Shown here piece after piece: positions 2,484 through 13,853 of a DNA stretch of 64,000 bases. Position 1 is the first letter of the stretch, and each line of letters begins with the position of its first letter. The stretch comes from Labyrinthula sp. Ha (Eukaryota; Sar; Bigyra; Labyrinthulida; Labyrinthulaceae). The DNA lies in the NCBI GenBank assembly GCA_015227615.1, contig JAALGZ010000010.1:992001-1056000 (forward strand), in the 5' to 3' direction. The translations under genes were made by a program, and so were the position numbers. A model generated the notes under the pieces. That model saw only the letters and a list, made by a program, of their open reading frames with translations, did no database searches and was not told the DNA's origin.

Positions 2484-2740
2484 TGTTAGTTCAAGTTTGA
2501 AATATATGGACTGAAACAAATCTTTATTACTAGCTGTTCAAAAACTTTGAAATATGAGTCCCTTGAAATAAGCGGTTAAGCAAATTAAGAGTTTAAGAGA
2601 ATATAAAAAGAAAATTTATTACTTTATATTTTATTCTATTTTTAAACAGTAAACTACTTTGAGAACAAGCCGATACATTCGTCCTTTTGAAAGTCCGTAG
2701 AATTTGTAGAAAGAGGTTTATTCTTGGACTATAAACGAAT
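2484..2740 (+). repeat. 5' LTR of the chromovirus
   Basis: About 257 bp, matching 9266-9529 along its whole length apart from scattered substitutions and small indels. It begins TGTTAG and ends ACGAAT, or ACGAATA if the target duplication is taken as 4 bp. The end is not the usual CA. Confidence 0.92.
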
Positions 2741-2786
2741 ATTGATCAATATTCCCTGTGGCTTGATATTTTCAAAGATTTAGAGA

Positions 2787-3740
2787 ATGTCTGGAGTAGA
2801 TCAAAACGAGCCTACGCGTCCTTTGAATCAGAAGCAGATGCTGGCTCTTTATGAAAGTATGCAGAAGATCTTGGATTCAACAAGAAGGGTTATAGAAGCT
2901 TTGCAGTTAAGTTCTAATGAAAGGCAATTGAGTAACATTACGCAGAATGGTGCGATGATTTGTCAGGATTTCAAGGTCGATGATTTAAAAGTTCTCGAAA
3001 GAAAGAATGTAGAGAAGTTTATCTATCAATATGAGAGGCTGTCTTTACAACAGAAGAGGGATATTAACTTGACACAAATCTTAGATTTGGATCTTTTTAT
3101 TCACTTACGACGACTAGATGTTACTAGAACTAATGAAGATCTCGTGGATTATTTAAAGATTCTATTGTTAGAAATGAAAGAGCAAGCTTTGGAGGAAGCC
3201 GAAATGATGATTGCCAAACATGTGAAATACAACTTCAAACTAAGGGAAGAAGATGCGATAAAAATCCTTTTTAGTGAAGTGCAGGAGATCATTATGTTGC
3301 AACCTTCCATTGCAAAACTCAATAAGAAGAAGATCGCGTTAGCGATCTTCGCTAAATTGCCTAAATACATCTGGGTAGAGGCAAGCAGGCTTAGTTTGAA
3401 CCCTGCTTTGGCCGATGTCGATCACACTCAATTGCAAAATTATGTTATGAATTGTTTACCTCCATTGTGTGTAAGAAATGAGATGAAGAAATGAGTTAAT
3501 TTCGGGAAGATACAGCTAGGGAAGTTTATAGAGTCTAATTCTATTGAAGTGAACGAAGTAAGCACTAAAGGAGAAATAAAATTTTATTCCCATTCCCAAA
3601 AAGAATCTTATAATGATGACCCAGATCTGTGCAATTATTGCTGGTTTTATGGGCACAAGAGCTTTAAGTGTTGGATGCGGTTGAAACTAATTAGGAATGA
3701 AAATAAAAACCCATCTCCGCAGTTCAAACCAGATGGATAG
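2787..3740 (+). mobile_element. gag region with CCHC zinc knuckle (fossil part)
   Basis: A capsid-like, helix-rich region of about 235 residues is followed by a C-x2-C-x4-H-x4-C zinc knuckle at about 3630-3671 (CNYCWFYGHKSFKC). The knuckle binds nucleic acid in gag proteins. This order and the position just inside the 5' LTR identify it as gag. Confidence 0.8.
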
Positions 3741-3880
3741 GTTTTAAGAAAAAGATTAACGAAGTGGAAAGAAAATGAAAAAAGGACCAGAGAAATAGTA
3801 TTAACAAATCGGCTGAGGGATCCACTTTTACATCTAATGAAATTGTACCTGTTAATGAATCTACAGTCCAAAATGTAGAG

Positions 3881-6500
3881 ATGAATATTATAGAAATCTT
3901 TCCGGTCCAATCAGTTGATGAAATAGTTTTAAATGAATACATTGATAAAGGAAATGTAGAGGTGTGGGATATAAATGAGAATGAGTTTTATCATATTGAA
4001 GCTGAGTTAGGGATAGAAACGAGAAAACACTCAATGATTACAGATGGCATCGTGGATTCTGGAGCTAGAAAAGCTTCAGGAGCAAGGAATTTATTTGAAA
4101 AATTTTGATGGAATACAGAAGACATTAAGAGGGAGACATTTGTCAGAGTGGCATCTTGGAACTTAAATCCAATTTTTAAGATTGGCCATTTATTACCCTC
4201 AGCACAAATTACAGGATTTGGAGATTATTTGTTGGGACTTTTGGCTGTGTTACTAGTCAAACAGGTAAGCAACTGGGCAAAACTTTTAATAGGAAAGAAT
4301 GTTCTAAAACTCCATGGTTTAGATCCTACACAGATTTTAGCCCGATGATTAAGAGGCAGAGGACAAGGAAAATCTTCTAAGCTAACAGAAAAAGTTGAGA
4401 AATTGGTGAAATCCTTTATAGAAAAATGCGAAGTTAATGAATGTATTGCAGTGGAATGAACTTATTTAGCAAAATGTCCGGGTATGTTAAATGTGATGTC
4501 GTCAATACAATGGCGGTTAGCTCGCACATCTTTAGCGAACCTAGATTTGAAAATCCCATGGAATTAAAGAAAGAAATAATTGAAGCGTTCGCAGTAGAGA
4601 TAAATAAATAAATTTTGAAGAAGGAGGTGCATGGCCAAATTCTGTAGTATTTAACGCTAGGCATGATGCGGAATTAGAAGAGTTGACTGGTGTTGGAGAA
4701 AATTAAGATGTCACTAGAGAGGCAGATTTAATCAGATTGAAAGACCTAATGAAGGAGAAGCTGAAAGACATTCCTGTCCAAATATTTGGAAAATAAGAAT
4801 TTAAAAGAGTTTGATGATTTGATTTTACAACATGTAGCCGGTTTCGGCGACGATTTATCCCCAGCTCAATTATCTCTCCTAAAACCTATAAATGTTCTTT
4901 AATGGGAGGAACAACAGTGAGAGCTCTTAATGCAATTGCTCTTGATATTAAAAGGAGAGATTCATGAAGAAAAGAGTGGACCAGACGATAAATAATAATG
5001 TTGTTGAGGTTGATGATGATCCAACAACATGCATGAGAGCTATTATTGTCCCAAAAAAGAGGTCCAAAAATATTGAATGGTACTTGATTTCAGGCCATTA
5101 AATGCAATTACTCAAAGTGTTGTGAATAAATTACCGAATATTGATCTACAGGTCGTAAAAATATATGGAAACACTATTTTTAGATCGTTTGACCTGCTTA
5201 GCGGGTTTGATTACTTACCTACACATCTTCACTCGCAGCATTTACTTATTTTTGGAGCACCTTGGGGCATGGCCTACTCGTTTAAGGAACCCCCCAAGGT
5301 TAATGTAATACCATATCTTTGTTTTCTCAAAGGGTGATTACACATGTTTTAACACCGATATCTCTTTTCTCAAATATTGCCTTACACTGGATCCACGATA
5401 CGATTTTATTCACGTTGGATTTAAGAACATACATGATTTTATTGAGTTGTTTTTTAAAGGCCATTATAAATAAAGAATGAAGGTTGAATACAGGGAAATG
5501 TGACCTGATTGCACAAAGTTTAGTACTTTGTGGGTAAAAATTAATAAAAGATGGTTATCGTCGAGTTGATACTTATTTGAAAGAAACTGGTGGAGTCGCG
5601 GAGGCATACTTATGTGTGCGAGTTAGCACAATTGATTTATTTAGGGAACTGGGTCTCAAGAATATTACTGGGCTTATCGGAGTTAAGAAAAGAATGGCCG
5701 GTGAATTCAATATTTACGGAAGACCTAAAAAGTTAAAAATAATGAAGACACTTCTAGATTGAAGCGATGCAATGATTCACGCTTACGAGAAATTGGTACA
5801 AGAAGTTAGGTTGACGCTCTCTAGGGCACTAGTTTATTACGATCAATAGTTGGACCTGGTTCTATTCACAGATGTTTCAGAATTTTACTGGAGCTATTTT
5901 ATTTGTCAAACCACTGAATAAATTGACTTATAATTTCCAATGGATACTAATTGAAATGTAATCGCAATTGCTTCTGGTACGTTCATAGATAATTCTTTAA
6001 GCTACCATACTACTTCTAAATAATTATTTCCAGTAGTAATCGCGTTGTAGAAACACTCTTGTTTTTATAAATCAAATGAGAAAAGAAAGATCATTTGTAC
6101 TGATCGTAAAAAGTTTTACTATACTTTAAATCCAATCAAAGCGTCCAAAAAAATCCTATTCTAAATGGTTGACGCATTGGAGTTTGATATTTCAAGATAT
6201 ACGTTTAGAAGTACACCACATCCCTAGAGAGCAGAATGTGGCTGCTGATATTTTATATCGTTGGCTTAGCACCGAGTTTGATAGAATAAATGCTGACGAA
6301 GTCATAGTTGCAGATGCAACCGTAGAACAATTAATTCTCAATATTTTTGGGAAAAGTTGACTGGGCTTCATGTTGGTTTACGTAATGGTGATTTTATACT
6401 AAATTGTAGAGATCATTGGTTGGAAATGGATAAATCCTTTTGTCTTAATTTACAAAATAAAGAATTTAATTTCAAAGAAAATACTTGAGGGGGATATAAA
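3881..6500 (+). mobile_element. Protease, reverse transcriptase and RNase H remains (fossil part)
   Basis: A protease-like DSGA motif lies near 4055. Reverse-transcriptase sequence is visible around 5077-5337 (VLDFRPLNAITQ and FRSFDLLSGF). An RNase H to connection segment lies around 6169-6360 (HHIPREQNVAADIL). This is the most decayed part of the element. Confidence 0.75.
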
Positions 6501-6527
6501 AAAGTTGGTTGTGACAAAAGTTTAATT

Positions 6528-8456
6528 TTGCCAGTGGTTGTTAATATGCATTTACGCTTGGACCATGTGACAGTTGACCAGGAAAAGAAATGGATTTCAG
6601 CTAATTATGTGAAGCACTCTAAAGAAGTAAAAAAAATATTTATGGAAGCTACGGAAAAATTAAGAAGCCAATGTTTACATTGTCAACGTCCATCGAAAAT
6701 AATAAGGAGACCTTTAGCGATTAATGAATTACCAAGTGAATGTAGAGCAGTTCTAACGTCAGATTATTTGTACATTTCACCAGAGGAAGGTTATGTGTTG
6801 ACTTTAATAGATGCGTTATCAAGAGTTACTTTATTGAAGCAGTGTAAGAATGCCAATGCAATAAATGTCGTGAATATTTTATGGGAATGGCATTCTCACT
6901 ATGATTTAGCTGATGATTTTATTCTACTATCTGACAAGGGTTCACATTACGTTAATGCAGTTGTAGATGCTTTTGTTAGGCAAAGCGGAGCAAGTCAGAA
7001 GTTCACGGTGGCTTATGCTCCCTACACTAATGGAGCCGCAGAAATACAAAATAAGCAGATTTTGAAGAATTTGAGAACCTTACTTTCAGAATATAATTTG
7101 AAGGCTGAAGATTGGCCTGAGGTTTTAGTGCAGGTACAATATTACCTTAATTCGAAGCCATTGAGAAGTAGAAATAATCTTACACCCTTCCAGATTTTGC
7201 TGGGTAAGAAACCTAGAAGGGATCCAGTGGGGCGAAAGTCAAATTTGAAATTGACATCAATTCAAATGAGTGAACTTAAAGAAGTTTCGCTGGAGTTAGA
7301 AGGAAGGATAAGAGAGTACCAAGAAATGGCTTTTTCATTCGCTGAACGATCAAGACAATATGCTAATGCTTTGTACAATAAGAAATACAAACTAACTCCG
7401 ATGCATTTCCATGTGGGAGAGTTTGTATTAGTCAGTAAACCAAAACGTGGTTCGAAGGTTAAACCTCAATGGACAGGACCATTTCAGATCATTCAACAAT
7501 TAGGGTCATATTTATATTTATTGAAGAATTTATGCGGGGATGAAGAAGAAGTACATGCATCTAGAATGATGTTTTATGCTCCATCACACTTTTTACCTTC
7601 TGCAAAAACAAAGATTTGTTATTTAAATGATTCAGAAAAGCTTGAGATTAAGAAGTTGATTAAGATCAAGAAACAGGATGATGAATATTTTCTGTTAGTT
7701 CATTGGAGAGGATTTCCATTAGAAGAGTCGACATGTGAACCAGTACAACAATTGTTTGAGGATTTGCCGAGTATAGTGGTTGATTTTCTATCGAAGAATA
7801 AATTCAGTGGAATGAAAGCATGTCTAACCCGATTACGATTAGCAAATCCAGAAGCGGAAATATGGAGTGCAGATGAGTATAATGTAGATCTTTGTGATTT
7901 GCATCTTACTGACAAAGAATTAGATGATTTCTTGAGTTTCGAACCAGTCAGTCAGTTTATGATTCCCATGTTTAATTCGCTTTTACGATGGAACAAAATC
8001 GAAGTTTACATCTTGAAACAATGTATTTTGAAGTTTGGATTTTCTAAGTATGGGAAGTACGCTGAGTTTCTCAAGAATAGGCCAAAAAGACAGATTTACA
8101 GTCAATTGCAGCACCTGGTAGGTAAACAGGCCATTTCTGTTTACTCGAATTTACGGCTTGATGTGGATGAAGTACGAAAAGACAATGTTAAATCTCATGG
8201 GGCTAAGTATTTTATTGAGAAGGAGTTTAATGGAGAAATTCATTTATTTAAGTTACGAATCTTTACTGCCATGCGTTATGCAAAAATGCATAGATTGAAT
8301 ACAGAACGAGCTGAAAAAGTTGATATAATGAAGTATTTTAATTGCAGTTCGGCTGATGGTATTGCACAGTTTATAAAGTTTATGGAAGAAAAAGGTGAAG
8401 TAGCATCCTTTCCTCTTGTAAATTGGTTTAATGTTGATAAAGAAGTGCAATGCTAG
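6528..8456 (+). mobile_element. Integrase, chromodomain and SANT-like region (fossil part, well kept)
   Basis: This stretch encodes about 640 residues. It starts with an H2C2-type zinc region (H...H, then CLHC). The integrase core follows, with the first Asp in LTSDYL, the second in LSDKGSHY and the Glu in GAAEIQNK, and a GPF/Y-like module (WTGPFQII). A chromodomain lies at about 7650-7790 (YFLLVHWRGFPLEESTCEP); chromodomains steer chromoviruses to marked chromatin. About 200 further residues are unusual. A stretch at about 7980-8190 has the W-rich, three-helix look of a SANT/Myb module followed by a QAISVYSNLRLDVD motif. SANT modules bind histone tails or DNA; that role here is inference. 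Confidence 0.88.
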
Positions 8457-8495
8457 AAAAAGAAATTCAGGGAAGTTAGCAGATTCGAAGCAGTA

Positions 8496-9248
8496 ATGGC
8501 TAAGAAGAAAATAGAAGTTCTTAGGGCTGTTGATGCAATAAGAGATGATTTGCAATGTGATAAATTGATGCCTGATTCTAAACATGGTTTTGATGTAAAA
8601 AGAACTAAATTGACAAATTTGTATGAGTTTAGAAAGGAGAATTTTATGATGCAGCATTGGATCATACATCCTAAGGTGAAGTTCTTCCATGGCGATGTAA
8701 ATGATTTCATTAAAAAGTTTGATGGTGGTGCTTTTGAAGTTGTGCATTTGGATCCGCCGTATCGATTTATGGCAAAGAATCCAATTAGAGGGGCAGCTAA
8801 TTTTTACGATACCATGTCAGACCATGATTTAAGGAAGTTGGACTTTACGAAACTAATGAAAAATACTATTGTTTTCCTCTGGACCTTTCCGAGTAAGAAG
8901 TCCTTAGCCATGGATATTTTCAAGAAAAATAATATTGAATACATGGATCACTTGTTGTGGATTAAACTTTCTGCTAAATGGAAATTGCGATCCACGTTTG
9001 GTAAGCTTACTCAGAAGTGTAGTTAAGAACTGCTAATTGGTGTCCATGGGAAGTTGCCAGATGCTTTGAAAAATAGGAACTTTGGTAAAGAATGTGTCTT
9101 CGCAGAAGTGGTAGGCAACAGCTGTAAACTAGAGAAGTTCTATGAAATTATTGAAGCACGGTTTGAAAAGCAAGCTAAAAAGCTGGACCTCTTTAGCAGA
9201 AAAAATAATCTTCGTTTAGGATGGTTAGCTGTGGGGAACGAGCTCTAG
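8496..9248 (+). mobile_element. MT-A70-like adenine methyltransferase region (fossil part)
   Basis: Directly after the integrase-chromodomain part, and still inside the LTRs, lies sequence of the MT-A70 family, the family of METTL3/14/4 and ciliate MTA1. The catalytic motif is HLDPPYRF (bases about 8745-8766), where MT-A70 enzymes usually have DPPW. It is followed by FYDTMSDHDLRKL, VFLWTFPS and HLLWIKL, each at the place expected of MT-A70 proteins. Towards the 3' LTR, ELLIGVHGKLP, a KLDLFSRKNNLRLGW segment and a final GNEL match the family's C-terminal motifs. Family enzymes transfer methyl from SAM to adenine N6. Use on DNA rather than RNA is inference from the linkage to integrase and chromodomain. 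Confidence 0.82.
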
Positions 9249-9265
9249 TAACAAGAATGGGGCAG

Positions 9266-9529
9266 TGTTAGTTCAAGTTTGAAATATATGGACTGAAATA
9301 AATTCTTATTACTAGCTGTTCAAATACTCTTGAAATATGAGTACCTTGTAATATAAGCGGTTTAAGCGAATTAAGAGTTTAAGAAAATACAAAAAGAAAA
9401 CTTATAATTTTATATTTTACTCTACTTTTTTAAACAGTAAACTACTTTGAGAACAAGCCGATACAGTCGTCCTTTTTGAAAGTCCGTAGAATTTGTAGAA
9501 AGAAGTTTATTTTTGGACTATAAACGAAT
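9266..9529 (+). repeat. 3' LTR of the chromovirus
   Basis: About 264 bp, the direct-repeat partner of 2484-2740. It is preceded by a purine-rich tract at about 9252-9265 and followed by AGATC, the same five bases that precede the 5' LTR at 2479-2483. Confidence 0.92.
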
Positions 9530-9802
9530 AGATCCCCGAAATAGATTTATTATACGTCATGGTTGATATGGCTTTGACTGTATTTTTTGTATATATGTAA
9601 CTACAAATTGTTATTGATATGGTTTTCATATAGTTAATTCCAAAAATACAAGCCTCATTAAGAGAAAAAACAGGTTTGGGTAAATTAATCAGATGAGATT
9701 GCTGTTATTAAATAAATACGTAACTTCCCTAAAGTGTCGAAAACGAAACTAAAGTAAAGGACCTAAACAAATAAATTACGCCAACAGAAAAAAGAACAAG
9801 AA

Positions 9803-10873
9803 ATGTGTATCCTAAACTGTGCTCGAGGAACTTGTGTAGATGGATCCTGCATTTGTGACCCAGGTTTCTCTCAGTCTTTAGACTATTCATACTTTGTAGA
9901 TAAAAGGTTCTCTTTCGTGGACAATGTGACCCTTTTTGCGACCTTGCCGTGTGACCAAAATGAAACTGCGATTAAAACTCTTTACCTGATTGCTATTATC
10001 TTAATTCTTCTTTCAATCCTAGCATACGCCCAACTTATTCGAAAAACCTCACAAGTCAAGAGACTATTACCATTTTTCTTTAGCAACGGTCTTGTGACTG
10101 CTGGGTTAATTTACAAACTACAAAATTTCGACGATCCTGCAGTTGCATATGGAATAGATATCTTCTTTACAATCTCTTTTCTTCTATCGCAATGTTTTGG
10201 GGGTGCTTACTTATTAAATTTCATACAGAAATGGATAAGGTGGGAAGAAAAGCTTATTGCAAAGAAGGAAAATGTTGATCCAGAGCTGGAAAACTTTAAG
10301 AAAACACAGAAGATATCCTTTGTTCTTATCTGTCTTGCTCCTATTCCTGTCATTACAACTTTGTTTGTAGATGATAAAAATTTTGCGTACCCTTTGGCGA
10401 TTTTACCCAGGATTTTGATGTTCGTAACAGTTGTCTATGCAGCATTTGGGGCTGATTACTTTGTAAAACGTGTAATCGAAGCTCTAAAAACTTCATTTGA
10501 AAGCGAGACAAGTTCACTTTTGAGAAAAGAGGCTATGGAGCATATAAGAAGAATTAAAATCTTGAGGTTAACCTTTCTTTTTCAAGGGGTGTTCTTGACT
10601 TCACTTACTATAATGGCTGTAGTTTCTTTCCAGGGTTTGAACAATTGGAAATATGCTATTCCATTGTATCAAATAATGTGGGGAACTATTTCATTTGTTA
10701 CTGTTTATGCATATAGAGAAGGAAGAATTAAGAAGATTTTGTTGAATTTTAGAGCTAAGAAGAAAAAGAAGGAAGAAGTTGAGCATTATAGTTTGCACGG
10801 TGTAGAAGCTGCAGAACTGGATCCTGATTATGAGTTTGAGGGGCCATCTCTAAACAAAAGTTTCAAGCTGTAA
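9803..10873 (+). CDS. EGF-like seven-transmembrane protein, paralogue 1
   Basis: A 356-residue membrane protein. The N-terminus is a small EGF-like module with Cys 2, 6, 11, 16, 18 and 50 (MCILNCARGTCVDGSCICD, later LPCDQ). Seven hydrophobic segments follow at about 57-79, 88-106, 115-140, 171-190, 196-221, 253-274 and 284-304. The tail is basic and then ends with DPDYEFEGPS near residue 340. Two paralogues lie at 46461-47615 and 50867-51985. No signal peptide precedes the EGF-like module. The ATG is the first after an in-frame TAA at 9764, and all three paralogues start MCIL, so the start is probably right. The seven-span layout with an extracellular N-terminus recalls receptor-type proteins, but I see no motif of a known GPCR class, so function is unknown. 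Confidence 0.88.
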   Translation: MCILNCARGTCVDGSCICDPGFSQSLDYSYFVDKRFSFVDNVTLFATLPCDQNETAIKTLYLIAIILILLSILAYAQLIRKTSQVKRLLPFFFSNGLVTAGLIYKLQNFDDPAVAYGIDIFFTISFLLSQCFGGAYLLNFIQKWIRWEEKLIAKKENVDPELENFKKTQKISFVLICLAPIPVITTLFVDDKNFAYPLAILPRILMFVTVVYAAFGADYFVKRVIEALKTSFESETSSLLRKEAMEHIRRIKILRLTFLFQGVFLTSLTIMAVVSFQGLNNWKYAIPLYQIMWGTISFVTVYAYREGRIKKILLNFRAKKKKKEEVEHYSLHGVEAAELDPDYEFEGPSLNKSFKL

Positions 10874-11089: not shown

Positions 11090-11833
11090 ATGTCAAACAA
11101 GCTAAGAAATCGAAGAAGACGCCGTCATTCGTCTTCCATTTCCTCTAACAGCACAATTTCAAAGCCTGATAGAAGAAATAGAAGATCTAACTCATACACT
11201 CTTTCAAATTCCCACTCTCCGGAGCAAAGAAGGCTAAACTGGAGAGACAGGAGTCGTTCATCCTCTCGTGCCGCCTCCGCTCGATCCGCAAGATCAGAAG
11301 AAATTTCTTATAACAGATCAAGAGCAAATTCGGAAAAATACAATCGCAAACCTTGGTATAAGAAAATAGTTGAACGGAGGGCCAGGTCACCACGGAGAAC
11401 TCGACGCTCAAGGTCAAGAACAAGGTCTAGACACAGACGCCCTTATAAACAAAGATCACGGTACAAAAGTGAAAGAAATTTTGGGAAAACATTGAAGAGA
11501 TCGATCTCCATTAGAAACCGAGGAAGTTCAAGTTATGTTCCCCCACATAAGAGAAGAAGAAAGAGTGCAGCAAGCCTGAGCAGAGAAAGAAGATTTAGAG
11601 AAGAGGAAGATAAGAAGATGCATGATATGAAAGAAAAAAACTCAAAGAAAGCCCAGGTTTTGAAAAGTTTGTTGCTTGATGTTGTAAAGAATGATTCAGG
11701 AAATAATGTTGATCCATTTAAAAGCAGTTTCGTCGTTGAAGATAACAAAAAAGCCGTTTCGAATAAGAAACGGTGGACCCATGACAAGCATATATTGATG
11801 TTGGAAGCTGACAGAAAAAAAAAGGATAATTAG
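11090..11833 (+). CDS. Arginine/serine-rich nuclear protein (SR-like)
   Basis: A 247-residue, strongly basic protein. Residues 1-130 are rich in RS/SR dipeptides and Arg runs, as in splicing-related RS proteins. A SYVPPHKRRRKS segment follows, then an acidic/basic helical part and a C-terminal KRWTHDKHI stretch. The W-x-H-D pattern faintly recalls Barentsz/CASC3-type motifs, but that is weak. There is no RRM, so it is not a classical SR factor. A role in nuclear RNA processing is inferred from composition only. Its TAG stop overlaps the stop codon of the bL21m gene on the other strand. Confidence 0.75.
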   Translation: MSNKLRNRRRRRHSSSISSNSTISKPDRRNRRSNSYTLSNSHSPEQRRLNWRDRSRSSSRAASARSARSEEISYNRSRANSEKYNRKPWYKKIVERRARSPRRTRRSRSRTRSRHRRPYKQRSRYKSERNFGKTLKRSISIRNRGSSSYVPPHKRRRKSAASLSRERRFREEEDKKMHDMKEKNSKKAQVLKSLLLDVVKNDSGNNVDPFKSSFVVEDNKKAVSNKKRWTHDKHILMLEADRKKKDN

Positions 11834-12291
11834 TTGTCCATATTAGGAAGAATATCTTCAATATGCAGGACAGTTATTTTTCTTCGAAATCCATTCCACT
11901 TCATGTGATTTTTTCTTCTCTTATGTTTGAAGACTACTACTTTTTCATCTTTTGCTTGTTCAAGAACCAACGCTTTTACCTGTGCATTTGAAATTGTTGG
12001 TCTTCCAATAATAGTTTGATTTTTGTCTCCTATTAATAGAACGTTGTCAAAATAAACAGTTTTTCCTACTCTATAAATCTCTGGATCCAACTTGTTCACC
12101 ACAAGTTGTGCACCTGGAGATACTTTATACTGAGAACCAGCCAATCCAACTACAGCAAACAGATTTTTCGAGTCCAAATCTTTTCTATCATTAACTTGAT
12201 GCCGCACCACAGCCGGTTTTGTGAAAAATCGAGCACCTTGCAGTCCTCTTGCTTCTGCTAGCCTCTTGCTCCGAATAATTGTTGTTCGCAT
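11830..12291 (-). CDS. MRPL21: Mitochondrial ribosomal protein bL21
   Basis: A 153-residue protein of the bL21 family, a large-subunit ribosomal protein of bacteria and organelles. The L21 core starts near residue 43 (LFAVVGLAGSQYKVSPG), continues through FDNVLLIGD and ends with the family signature VVVFKHKRRKN. About 40 N-terminal residues are basic, hydroxylated and lack acids at the very start (MRTTIIRSKRLAEARG), as expected of a mitochondrial presequence. A plastid location cannot be excluded. The 3' end overlaps the RS-protein gene by 4 bp, convergently. The 5' end is 71 bp from the divergent SET gene start. Confidence 0.93.
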   Translation of the reverse strand: MRTTIIRSKRLAEARGLQGARFFTKPAVVRHQVNDRKDLDSKNLFAVVGLAGSQYKVSPGAQLVVNKLDPEIYRVGKTVYFDNVLLIGDKNQTIIGRPTISNAQVKALVLEQAKDEKVVVFKHKRRKNHMKWNGFRRKITVLHIEDILPNMDN

Positions 12292-12362: not shown

Positions 12363-13853
12363 ATGAAATCAACAAAAACGACAGTTGATTTGAAAGAATT
12401 AGTGTTTAGTAAATTCAAGCATTATTTTGTGATTCTTAGGTGGCAGTTGTTTGTTCTCGGGCAAATCTGTTTCTTTTTGCGATATCAGTAAGGAAAGTTT
12501 GCGGAAATTGGTTTCAGAAGAGGTTGTGTTGCTGGAATGTAGTTTTAAGGGCAGTGAGTTCAAGTTCTTTATTAAGGTTAAGAAAGGAGAACAGGGTTCA
12601 AAAATGGCACAAATTTCAATGAAAAAGGGCAGCGTCTCTGTTTCCTGCGATGAATCTGTAACATCTTTCCGTGAACTTAAGGTAAACAGAACTGAGCTGC
12701 TAAGAGCTTTACGCAAAATATCTAAGAAAAAGAAAATATCGGTCAACCAGAATACATCATCTTCTTTAATAAAGCCATTATTAAAACCTAGGTCTGTTGA
12801 AGAGGCCATGCGAGAATTTAAGATGATTAAATTGAACCACTATGTTGCGAAAGGGGCAAAGAAGAAGCTGAAACAAATTGCAGACAAGTGCTCATGCGTT
12901 CCTGCTGCTAAGAACAAAACTAAACCTGGTTGTGGGTCTAACTGTTTGAACAGAGCGCTTAATTTTGAGTGTACCGCTGAAACTTGTGATTTTCTTCGTC
13001 TAAATTTTGGTTGCTCTAATCAAGAGCTAACGGATGCAAGATTCCCCAAAAGGAAAATCGTTTCTCTTGGTGAAAAAGGTCTTGGCATGATTGCAGATGA
13101 AAACATTTCTAGTGGCCGGCTGGTAGAGGAATACAGTACTTTCCTTTTTGTGCTTATATTTAGTTGGAGAAATCATAGACGGTAAAGAACGGGTTAGGAG
13201 ATTAAACATTGTCTATAAAAATGAAACTCATAAGTATCTCATGCAACTATCAGGAGATTTCTTAATAGGTACTTCATCTTTAGTTCTAAGCCTTAGATGC
13301 TACAAGAGAAGGTAGTTTGGCTCGTTTTATCAATCACTCCTGTGATCCCAATTGTCAAGTTCAACTGTGGTATTGTAATGGCCTTCCAAGGCTAGCTATA
13401 TTTGCCATAAAATCGATCAAGAAGGGCGAAGAAGTTAGCTTTAATTATAATTTTCAACGATTCGGAGAGGCAGACATCCCTCTATGTCATTGTGGAGCCA
13501 AGACCTGCAAACAAATCTTTGGCAAGAGATCGCTTGAGGACAAACGAAATCACAACGGGTCCAAAAAAATTAAATTTCTCGAAGTGCGAAAGGATGGGAA
13601 AAGTCTAGATCCTATAACTTTAGTCCCAATCTTCCCTGACCTTACAGCTTTCGAACTGACAGACCTTGAAGATGGGTTCATCCATGTGCTTAACAAGAAG
13701 AACAGCTTTTGTAGTACTGATAAGACAAATCAAACATATGAACATGTCTCGCTGAACAAGAATCTAAAAAAGGGCATGTCTTCTTTGTTGAAAAACAAAT
13801 ATGTAACTGAGTACCTAGAGTTGTTAAAAGAGGATGTTTTCAGTGATTATTGA
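12363..13853 (+). CDS. SET-domain histone methyltransferase, NSD/ASH1/SET2-like (4 exons)
   Basis: Exons 12363-12408, 12440-13135, 13164-13268 and 13297-13853 give 467 residues, and the spliced length is exactly divisible by three. The cysteine-rich AWS region lies at about 166-210 (CSCVP...GCGSNC). The SET domain follows, with GLGMIADENI, then EYIGEIIDG restored exactly across the second intron, DATREG restored across the third, NHSC (295-298) and FNYNF (331-335). A post-SET motif CHCGAKTC is at 346-353. The NYNF form and AWS-SET-post-SET order are those of the H3K36 group, which writes H3K36 methylation on chromatin. The start at 12363 rests on joining a 46-nt exon in frame; the downstream exon has an in-frame stop just upstream and no early ATG. 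The N-terminal 150 residues are unrecognised. Confidence 0.87.
12409..12439 (+). other. Micro-intron 1 of the SET gene (31 nt)
   Basis: GTAAAT donor and TTCTTAG acceptor. Splicing joins an ATG-bearing frame to the main frame. This is the least certain of the three, because the N-terminus has no recognised motif. Confidence 0.65.
13136..13163 (+). other. Micro-intron 2 of the SET gene (28 nt)
   Basis: GTACTT donor and ATTTAG acceptor. Removal turns a divergent tail into EYIGEIIDG, a canonical SET-domain stretch. Confidence 0.95.
13269..13296 (+). other. Micro-intron 3 of the SET gene (28 nt)
   Basis: GTACTT donor and CCTTAG acceptor. Removal gives DFLIDATREGSLARFINHSC, the expected SET core. 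A TTCTAAG just upstream of the acceptor could be the branch site. Confidence 0.95.

Follow-up and report, generated by a model that had tools for sequence, protein, structure and literature searches.

Ty3-type retrotransposons of Labyrinthula carry p1-like and AMT1-type domains resembling two subunits of a 6mA writer

Why would a retrotransposon carry an adenine methyltransferase beside a chromodomain? The question is raised by a 64,000-nucleotide window of the Labyrinthula sp. Ha genome (contig JAALGZ010000010.1, positions 992,001 to 1,056,000), in which a decayed long terminal repeat (LTR) retrotransposon of the Ty3 type occupies window positions 2484 to 9530. A sequence-only reading of the window had placed an integrase, a chromodomain, a SANT/Myb-like region and an MT-A70 methyltransferase within a single LTR pair, and this arrangement is borne out by the LTRs, by Pfam and by a profile of the DNA-binding protein p1. 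What we add is the probable type of the methyltransferase, that of the AMT1/MTA1 writers of N6-methyladenine (6mA), and the likeness of the SANT region to p1. Our preferred explanation, to which we assign a probability of roughly 0.55, is that this Ty3-type family, with its fused relatives of p1 and AMT1/MTA1, writes 6mA on its own complementary DNA (cDNA) or insertion and thereby evades silencing. Sequence comparison establishes the domain order within one frame, the AMT1 and p1 relationships, the spread of the family, its young insertions and its purifying selection.

In the window copy, an open frame on the plus strand (6489 to 8456) encodes the integrase, an SH3-like tail, the chromodomain and the p1-like region and terminates at a TAG codon, beyond which the same frame continues through the MT-A70 (AMT1-type) domain (8457 to 9248, plus strand), with stops at 9024 to 9026 and 9246 to 9248. 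The entire frame from 6489 to 9248 has zero frameshifts and two in-frame stops (TAG at 8454 to 8456 and TAA at 9024 to 9026). The MT-A70 domain, at about 8733 to 9242, is matched by Pfam with an E-value of 2.4e-8 in its open part and 9.6e-20 when each stop is replaced by X (71.6 bits against a cut-off of 23.9), a significant match that agrees with the sequence-only reading. The motifs named by that reading are present, including the catalytic motif DPPY (8751 to 8762, plus strand), which was located from the sequence and the domain alignment. Pfam was less generous with the remaining domains: the integrase core (rve, about 6750 to 7022, plus strand; E 2.2e-6, 28.3 bits) and the chromodomain (Chromo, about 7644 to 7787, plus strand; E 3e-4, 21.1 bits) were matched below their curated cut-offs of 32.6 and 25.1 bits, and the Myb model gave no match to this copy at E ≤ 1. 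Chromo is above cut-off in L022 (C88:1020034), a close relative of the window copy. The Myb/SANT region, at 7989 to 8195 (plus strand), is matched by a profile of p1 that contains no sequence from the elements (E 4.5e-10, calculated for 1000 sequences).

The element had been described as a fossil, which is true of the window copy with its two stops but not of the family, in which open frames persist and LTR pairs of at least 99% identity occur. Uninterrupted frames reach 2061 amino acids in L031, 2164 in L022, 2107 in both L034 and L037, and 1859 in L028. L031, the sole copy scanned over its entire frame (in four pieces), encodes an aspartic protease, reverse transcriptase (RVT_1, E 2.2e-20), RNase H and integrase (rve, E 4e-11), followed toward the C terminus by an SH3_Tf2-1-like tail, Chromo (E 3.9e-6), Myb (E 1.4e-3) and MT-A70 (E 4.9e-25). 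Partial scans of L034, L037, L028 and L027 gave MT-A70 matches with E-values from 4e-23 to 2e-28 and rve within the same long frame of each, along with Myb-type matches in L037, L028 and L027 and a protease in L037. Chromo is above cut-off in L031, L034 and L037, below it in L042 and L043, and not listed for L027 and L028.

An LTR pair was found at all 21 loci surveyed (the window and L021 to L040, with boundaries as given by BLAST). Seven pairs have at least 99% identity, counting that of L024, a 1412-bp repeat that runs into a neighboring element, and seven loci have exact 4-bp duplications (the window, L022, L029, L030, L031, L037 and L040). L022, which belongs to the window's subfamily, has LTRs of 99.2% identity and a CATA duplication. 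The reverse transcriptase of L031, the one copy compared, has that of Ty3 as its nearest solved chain (4ol8, E 5e-18, the best of 194 matched). By this match and by the domain order between the LTRs, the family is a Ty3/gypsy LTR retrotransposon (Metaviridae). The chromodomain alone does not define a chromovirus, because Gypsy lineages that carry one and are unrelated to chromoviruses are described in the available text of a recent report (PMC12477816).

The window fossil is thus a member of a large family with young members. The genome searched, to which the window belongs, comprises 50.84 Mb in 153 contigs. A first pass gave 354 MT-A70 candidates, and 150 were scored, all of them above the Pfam cut-off; at least 34 of these lie in open frames of 1500 amino acids or more without a stop. 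One of the 150, on C91, is a host AMT1 gene candidate, and most of the others were not inspected singly. Identical frames occur on separate contigs (e.g., C2:883288, C37:14320 and C148:52942), which may be duplicated or allelic.

Matches to rve, p1 and MT-A70 were compared among the 150 scored for each, so that every pairing count is a lower bound. Of the 150 integrase matches listed, which include a Ty1/copia element (L113, judged by domain order), 36 have a listed MT-A70 match in the same orientation up to 3.5 kb downstream; the other orientations gave 1, 0 and 0. The spacing is narrow, at 1.69 to 1.91 and 2.17 to 2.21 kb. For the p1-like matches, 100 of the 150 listed are followed within 2.5 kb by a listed MT-A70 in the same orientation (0, 1 and 0 for the remaining arrangements), and 17 have a listed rve match upstream. 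The domain order described by the sequence-only reading is found across the genome. A chance host fragment lying between two LTRs and absent from relatives was ruled out, since the same order recurs genome-wide with counts of 0 to 1 in other orientations. Chromodomains tell a similar story: 117 of the 148 listed are followed by a p1-like match within 1 kb or by MT-A70 within 2.5 kb, as counted with the 150 scored MT-A70 places and 31 further ones. A listed rve match lies upstream of 45 chromodomains, 30 of which are then followed by p1 or MT-A70 and 15 of which are without a listed one, although one of these 15 places (on C24) bears p1-like and MT-A70 parts farther on. The lists understate the reach of the fusion: the L114/L116 element (C24:484450-487400), of another lineage, has a p1-like part (E 6e-8) and a divergent MT-A70 domain (L116, E 3e-13) in which DPPW is present and one stop precedes the end.

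To which type does the methyltransferase belong? When compared with solved structures, the MT-A70 domain of L031 matches MTA1 with an E-value of 3.1e-35, METTL3 with 1.2e-15, METTL14 with 5e-12 and MTA9 with 0.04. The ciliate of the best-matching MTA1/AMT1 structure is presumably Tetrahymena, and MTA9 we take to be of the AMT6/7 type, a type compared through this solved chain alone in a set that did not extend to AMT2/5. Profiles were also built from AMT1, METTL3, METTL14-like, METTL4 and bacterial rows, with groups assigned from a tree and a few database names. The AMT1 profile ranks first for all 32 element domains by margins of 27 to 66 bits, and for the window domain it scores 131 bits versus 82 for METTL3. 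A PxRG motif follows the catalytic motif in 30 of the 32 element domains and in all four AMT1 rows, and in none of the 36 METTL3/14, METTL4 and bacterial rows. The element domain is therefore best classed, by these sequence features, as an AMT1/MTA1 type and a relative of the eukaryotic DNA 6mA writers.

Two other affiliations were considered and rejected. A METTL3-type RNA enzyme as nearest relative is ruled out by the solved-structure E-values and by the profiles, AMT1 being best in 32 of 32, and a bacterial or phage type by the bacterial profile (two rows only), which scores 18 to 55 bits versus 104 to 176 for AMT1. An NCBIfam profile search gave no match above a cut-off. In a maximum-likelihood tree, the main element clade (26 rows) has support of 100/98, with its neighbors weakly placed. 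An approximately unbiased test rejected neither a clade of elements with AMT1 (p 0.36) nor the elements alone (p 0.19). The catalytic motif is DPPW in 15 of the 32 domains, DPPY in 13 and another sequence in four. Thus, the DPPY to which the sequence-only reading drew attention is indeed there, but it is no oddity of this copy; it is the motif of the window's subfamily and not a copy error.

The region between the chromodomain and the methyltransferase changes what the fusion may mean. Here, 110 residues of L042 match p1, a subunit of the MTA1 complex (E 3.5e-17; TRF1-type Mybs reach 1e-3), as do 140 amino acids of L043 (E 1.7e-18), for which other Mybs either score 1e-3 or are absent. A profile made from the p1 of Tetrahymena and the two candidates for host p1, and from no element sequence, matches 22 of 22 element pieces and none of the 1100 shuffled sequences that served as controls. 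When the profile is divided, its Myb part alone matches seven of the 22 pieces and its post-Myb part alone matches 10, plus one of the 1100 shuffles. The pieces tested leave aside L035, whose upstream part is unalignable, the short frames of L023, L033 and L038, and L026, L029 and L039, which have stops in the domain. These comparisons suggest a resemblance between the SANT region of the elements and p1, the subunit that binds DNA in the 6mA complex. The Myb/SANT likeness seen by the sequence-only reading stands, but its label was too narrow: with a p1-like part beside an AMT1-type part, relatives of two subunits from a single writer complex are combined in the elements.

The linker between these two parts in L031 gave no match among solved chains. 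In the elements of C95/C145, a retropepsin-like domain separates the p1-like part from MT-A70 (L042, RVP, E 7e-5; L043, gag-asp_proteas, E 0.019), and a similar DSGA motif can be seen by eye in L048 (C122).

Has selection conserved the module? The ratio of nonsynonymous to synonymous substitution rates (dN/dS) was calculated by the Nei-Gojobori method with our own script for four separate within-subfamily pairs chosen with dS between 0.1 and 1.6. For MT-A70 the ratio is 0.09 (L021/L022), 0.17 (L027/L028), 0.04 (L031/L033) and 0.07 (L034/L040); for the integrase it is 0.10, 0.24, not comparable and 0.05 in the same order. The linker from p1 to MT-A70 is looser, at 0.15 to 0.39 across the four pairs. 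Younger pairs (dS 0.03 to 0.08) give 0.16 to 0.49 from few changes, and pairs between subfamilies mostly 0.3 to 1.0, at or near saturation. The MT-A70 values of 0.04 to 0.17 indicate that the p1-AMT1 module is under purifying selection. Among 19 of the 25 frames used for this analysis, integrase distances correlate with those of MT-A70 (rho 0.86) and of p1 (rho 0.58), with 0 of 2000 permutations as extreme in each case, and element lineages diverge to 21% identity in the MT-A70 domain. The correlated distances fit an old capture with joint descent, and imply neither a date nor a single origin.

The host appears to have a writer of its own. A separate gene candidate for AMT1 lies at C91:220347-221273 (a frame of 327 amino acids, 48% identity to Cunninghamella, E 2e-80). 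With the Tetrahymena p1 stretch as query, the top matches are two separate genes, L050 (C1:1284467, 42%, E 8.5e-31) and L051 (C100:135979, 45%, E 4.8e-28), which are candidates for host p1. One of these has a longer C-terminal part with what we take to be a Tudor-like look.

How might such a module serve a retrotransposon? In the explanation we prefer, the Chromo-p1-AMT1 part would stay on or near the integrase and travel with it to the new insertion, where, alone or with host subunits, it would place 6mA on ApT sites of the cDNA or of the fresh insertion. The new copy would then bear an "active gene" mark that aids its escape from silencing. Such a mark is plausible because AMT1-type 6mA accompanies permissive chromatin in other eukaryotes, in which AMT1 and its partners place 6mA at ApT in active genes, according to the accessible text of a 2025 survey (PMC12695648). 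In Mucor, symmetric 6mA is reported to be gone upon loss of either mta1 or p1 (PMC11258239).

Several observations weigh against this explanation. The window copy itself is dead. The DPP[WY] motif is lost in four of the 32 domains (DLPF in L045, DPAW in L048, DFPY in L039 and GPPW in P0002); L045 and L048 are open across the domain, L039 has two stops and P0002 is a predicted protein, and all four are possibly non-catalytic variants. The divergent L116 domain is without PxRG. The free tree sets the main element clade beside METTL4 and bacterial rows, with weak support at this depth, and long branches (L044, P0003 and L042) call for care. By solved chains, the p1 match of the main element clade is weak against general Mybs, and in L031 p1 (E 5.4e-4) ties with TADA2 (E 5.2e-4). 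Among the matches listed, rve, p1 and MT-A70 occur together at only 13 places at least (13 of the 150 p1 matches). Finally, AMT1 in other species acts with the partner AMT6/7 and with p1/p2, as described in the text seen of the survey (PMC12695648).

The first rival to marking is targeting by the reading of 6mA. Here, the p1 and AMT1 domains would read host DNA. Should the module favor half-methylated ApT close to the starts of genes, a preference ascribed to AMT1, it would tether the integrase to open chromatin rich in 6mA, and catalysis would be secondary. The chromodomain at the integrase end serves as a tether in Ty3 elements, and the module lies directly behind integrase and chromodomain, in the usual tether position. 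The window copy, moreover, sits about 270 bp ahead of the first ATG of a same-strand open frame, and DPPY and lost catalytic motifs occur. A single insertion site, however, cannot test a preference, and DPP[WY] is retained in 28 of the 32 domains, in a domain that evolves as slowly as the integrase. We consider this alternative possible but rather unlikely.

Methylation might instead spare linear cDNA from host nucleases or sensors of unmethylated DNA, a role we regard as improbable. For the cytosine methyltransferases of retrotransposons, methylation of the cDNA has been proposed by De Mendoza et al. (PMC5890265), and an enzyme that is part of pol could be packaged with reverse transcriptase; yet AMT1 of other species acts in a complex. 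More improbable still is that the domain writes N6-methyladenosine (m6A) on the element's own RNA in the manner of METTL3/METTL14. It belongs to the same superfamily, and an orchid Gypsy element bears an m6A RNA demethylase, as far as the text seen of that report goes (PMC9289625), but the AMT1 profile exceeds that of METTL3 in 32 of 32 domains and a p1-like, DNA-binding part adjoins. Furthermore, a METTL3 query (E ≤ 1e-25), which could miss a gene split by introns, gave four places in the genome, namely frames of 1797 and 616 amino acids, the host AMT1 and a short frame at C70. Least credible is a passenger, in which host genes captured by chance drift without benefit: the window copy has stops in the module and the catalytic motif is lost in four of 32 domains, but the dN/dS values speak against this reading because they show purifying selection in four pairs, at least 34 of 150 matches lie in long open frames, and the module is kept in lineages down to 21% identity.

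The searches made beyond this genome gave no such element from elsewhere. A protein search, which relies on shared 5-letter words so that distant relatives may escape, gave 41 proteins, 38 of them MT-A70 proteins matching less than half of the query, and none with the element architecture outside this genome's sequences; the EukProt proteins P0001 and P0003 are 100% identical to places in this genome, and P0002 groups with its copies. At polyprotein length, nine proteins were recovered, comprising seven EukProt proteins with retrotransposon domains and two plant MT-A70 proteins. One of the seven, P0042, shows no difference from L031 in the part scored, and the other six were not compared with the genome. 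Among the proteins searched, the architecture was confined to EukProt rows, each of which is, or probably is, from the same organism as the window. None of 47 candidates from a protein search with the p1 part has the element architecture. In IMG/VR, at least 61 loci on viral contigs (L052 to L112) match query residues 334 to 558 (MT-A70) only, at 19 to 31% identity, with no chromodomain or p1 match among those listed. No AMT1-type enzyme in a retrotransposon came up among the papers listed from the literature searched, which covers only a minority of subscription journals and no bioRxiv preprints.

Related inventions are known, as described in the available portions of the reports cited. Cytosine methyltransferases are carried by retrotransposons, one of them a Gypsy element (PMC5890265), Dam-like enzymes by DIRS elements (PMC5890265, PMC6338049), and ParB with an N4/N6 methyltransferase by DNA transposons (PMC12477816). 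KnitGypsy-Dnmt3 of Klebsormidium nitens, SymbioDIRS-Dnmt3 and SymbioLINE-Dnmt resemble the present family in bearing a eukaryotic-type DNA methyltransferase; in KnitGypsy and SymbioDIRS it lies inside the Pol polyprotein, and in KnitGypsy it is likewise under purifying selection (PMC5890265). These enzymes differ in being of the cytosine type, unrelated to MT-A70, and the text seen of that article mentions no second writer-complex subunit, and its main text no chromodomain (PMC5890265). The DIRS elements share an adenine methyltransferase with the Labyrinthula family, but theirs is of the bacterial Dam type and accompanies a tyrosine recombinase (PMC5890265, PMC6338049), whereas here a eukaryotic AMT1 type accompanies the rve integrase of a Ty3 element. 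In ciliates, algae and early fungi, the MTA1c/AMT1 complex (7f4l and others; PMC12695648, PMC11258239) likewise combines an AMT1 catalytic domain with p1. Its subunits are separate, however, whereas those of the elements are mobile and fused to integrase and chromodomain, with a match to p1 in its N-terminal part only.

Similar comparisons can be made for the remaining parts. Chromodomain Ty3/gypsy elements (chromoviruses, and those of Ectocarpus and the oomycete Chronos) also have the chromodomain at the integrase end, but no p1-AMT1 part is mentioned for them in the text seen (PMC12477816). The bdelloid N4CMT also joins a chromodomain reader to a DNA amino-methyltransferase, but is described as belonging to the host, as having come from bacteria and as producing N4-methylcytosine (PMC8885841). 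The orchid Gypsy-AlkB, also a Gypsy element with an enzyme acting on methylated adenine, differs in that AlkB is reported to take m6A off RNA (PMC9289625).

The rest of the window element shows its age. Its LTRs (5′, TGTTAG...GAATA, 2484 to 2741; 3′, 9266 to 9530; both plus strand) have 91.3% identity, and the target-site duplication GATC ends the left flank (2480 to 2483) and opens the right one (9531 to 9534). A gag-like open frame (2784 to 3494, plus strand) matches no Pfam family over its cut-off and begins with MSGVDQNE, nearly as the 2164-residue frame of L022 does. Reading the plus strand onward, there follow a CX2CX4HX4C zinc knuckle (3630 to 3671), which we take to be of the gag-type class, a remnant VDSGA motif of the aspartic protease (4052 to 4066; the protease profile is matched in L031 and L037), a reverse transcriptase remnant (5077 to 5337) with an RVT_1 E-value of only 0.13, as against 2.2e-20 in its relative L031, and, ahead of the 3′ LTR, a purine-rich tract (9255 to 9265); knuckle, VDSGA and purine-rich tract were read from the sequence. 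The gag and pol regions as far as RNase H are interrupted by stops and frameshifts. At L023 (C124:103080-112597), the frame terminates where the window has its TAG, and the match to the window starts at the 5′ LTR and extends through the 3′ flank to window position 10473; judged by this match, L023 is a duplicated or allelic stretch of the window region.

The same-strand open frame beyond the 3′ LTR (9767 to 10873) has an EGF-like start, and the element likely sits just ahead of a gene. Farther on, an AWS domain (E 2.5e-7) at 12433 to 13853 is followed by another frame, which presumably resembles SET, and this region is likely a histone methyltransferase gene with an intron. On the minus strand, 11830 to 12291 resembles what we take to be a bacterial-type ribosomal protein L21 of the organelle kind.

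A 2025 survey of 231 eukaryotes depicts families of MT-A70 enzymes that are relatively static, and treats 6mA as marking active endogenous genes (PMC12695648). In the Labyrinthula family, by contrast, an AMT1-type enzyme with a p1-like part has entered a mobile element and diversified, and is found at no fewer than 100 places behind a p1-like match. We suggest tentatively, and with low confidence, that the lineage took over a two-subunit 6mA writer and gives its insertions a heritable active-chromatin mark; much of the 6mA of the organism might then be transposon-written, and host and element might compete over that single mark. The many natural p1-AMT1 fusions are available for studying how the writer recognizes DNA. 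They also open a testable question, namely whether placing a DNA mark, instead of evading it, can benefit a transposon.

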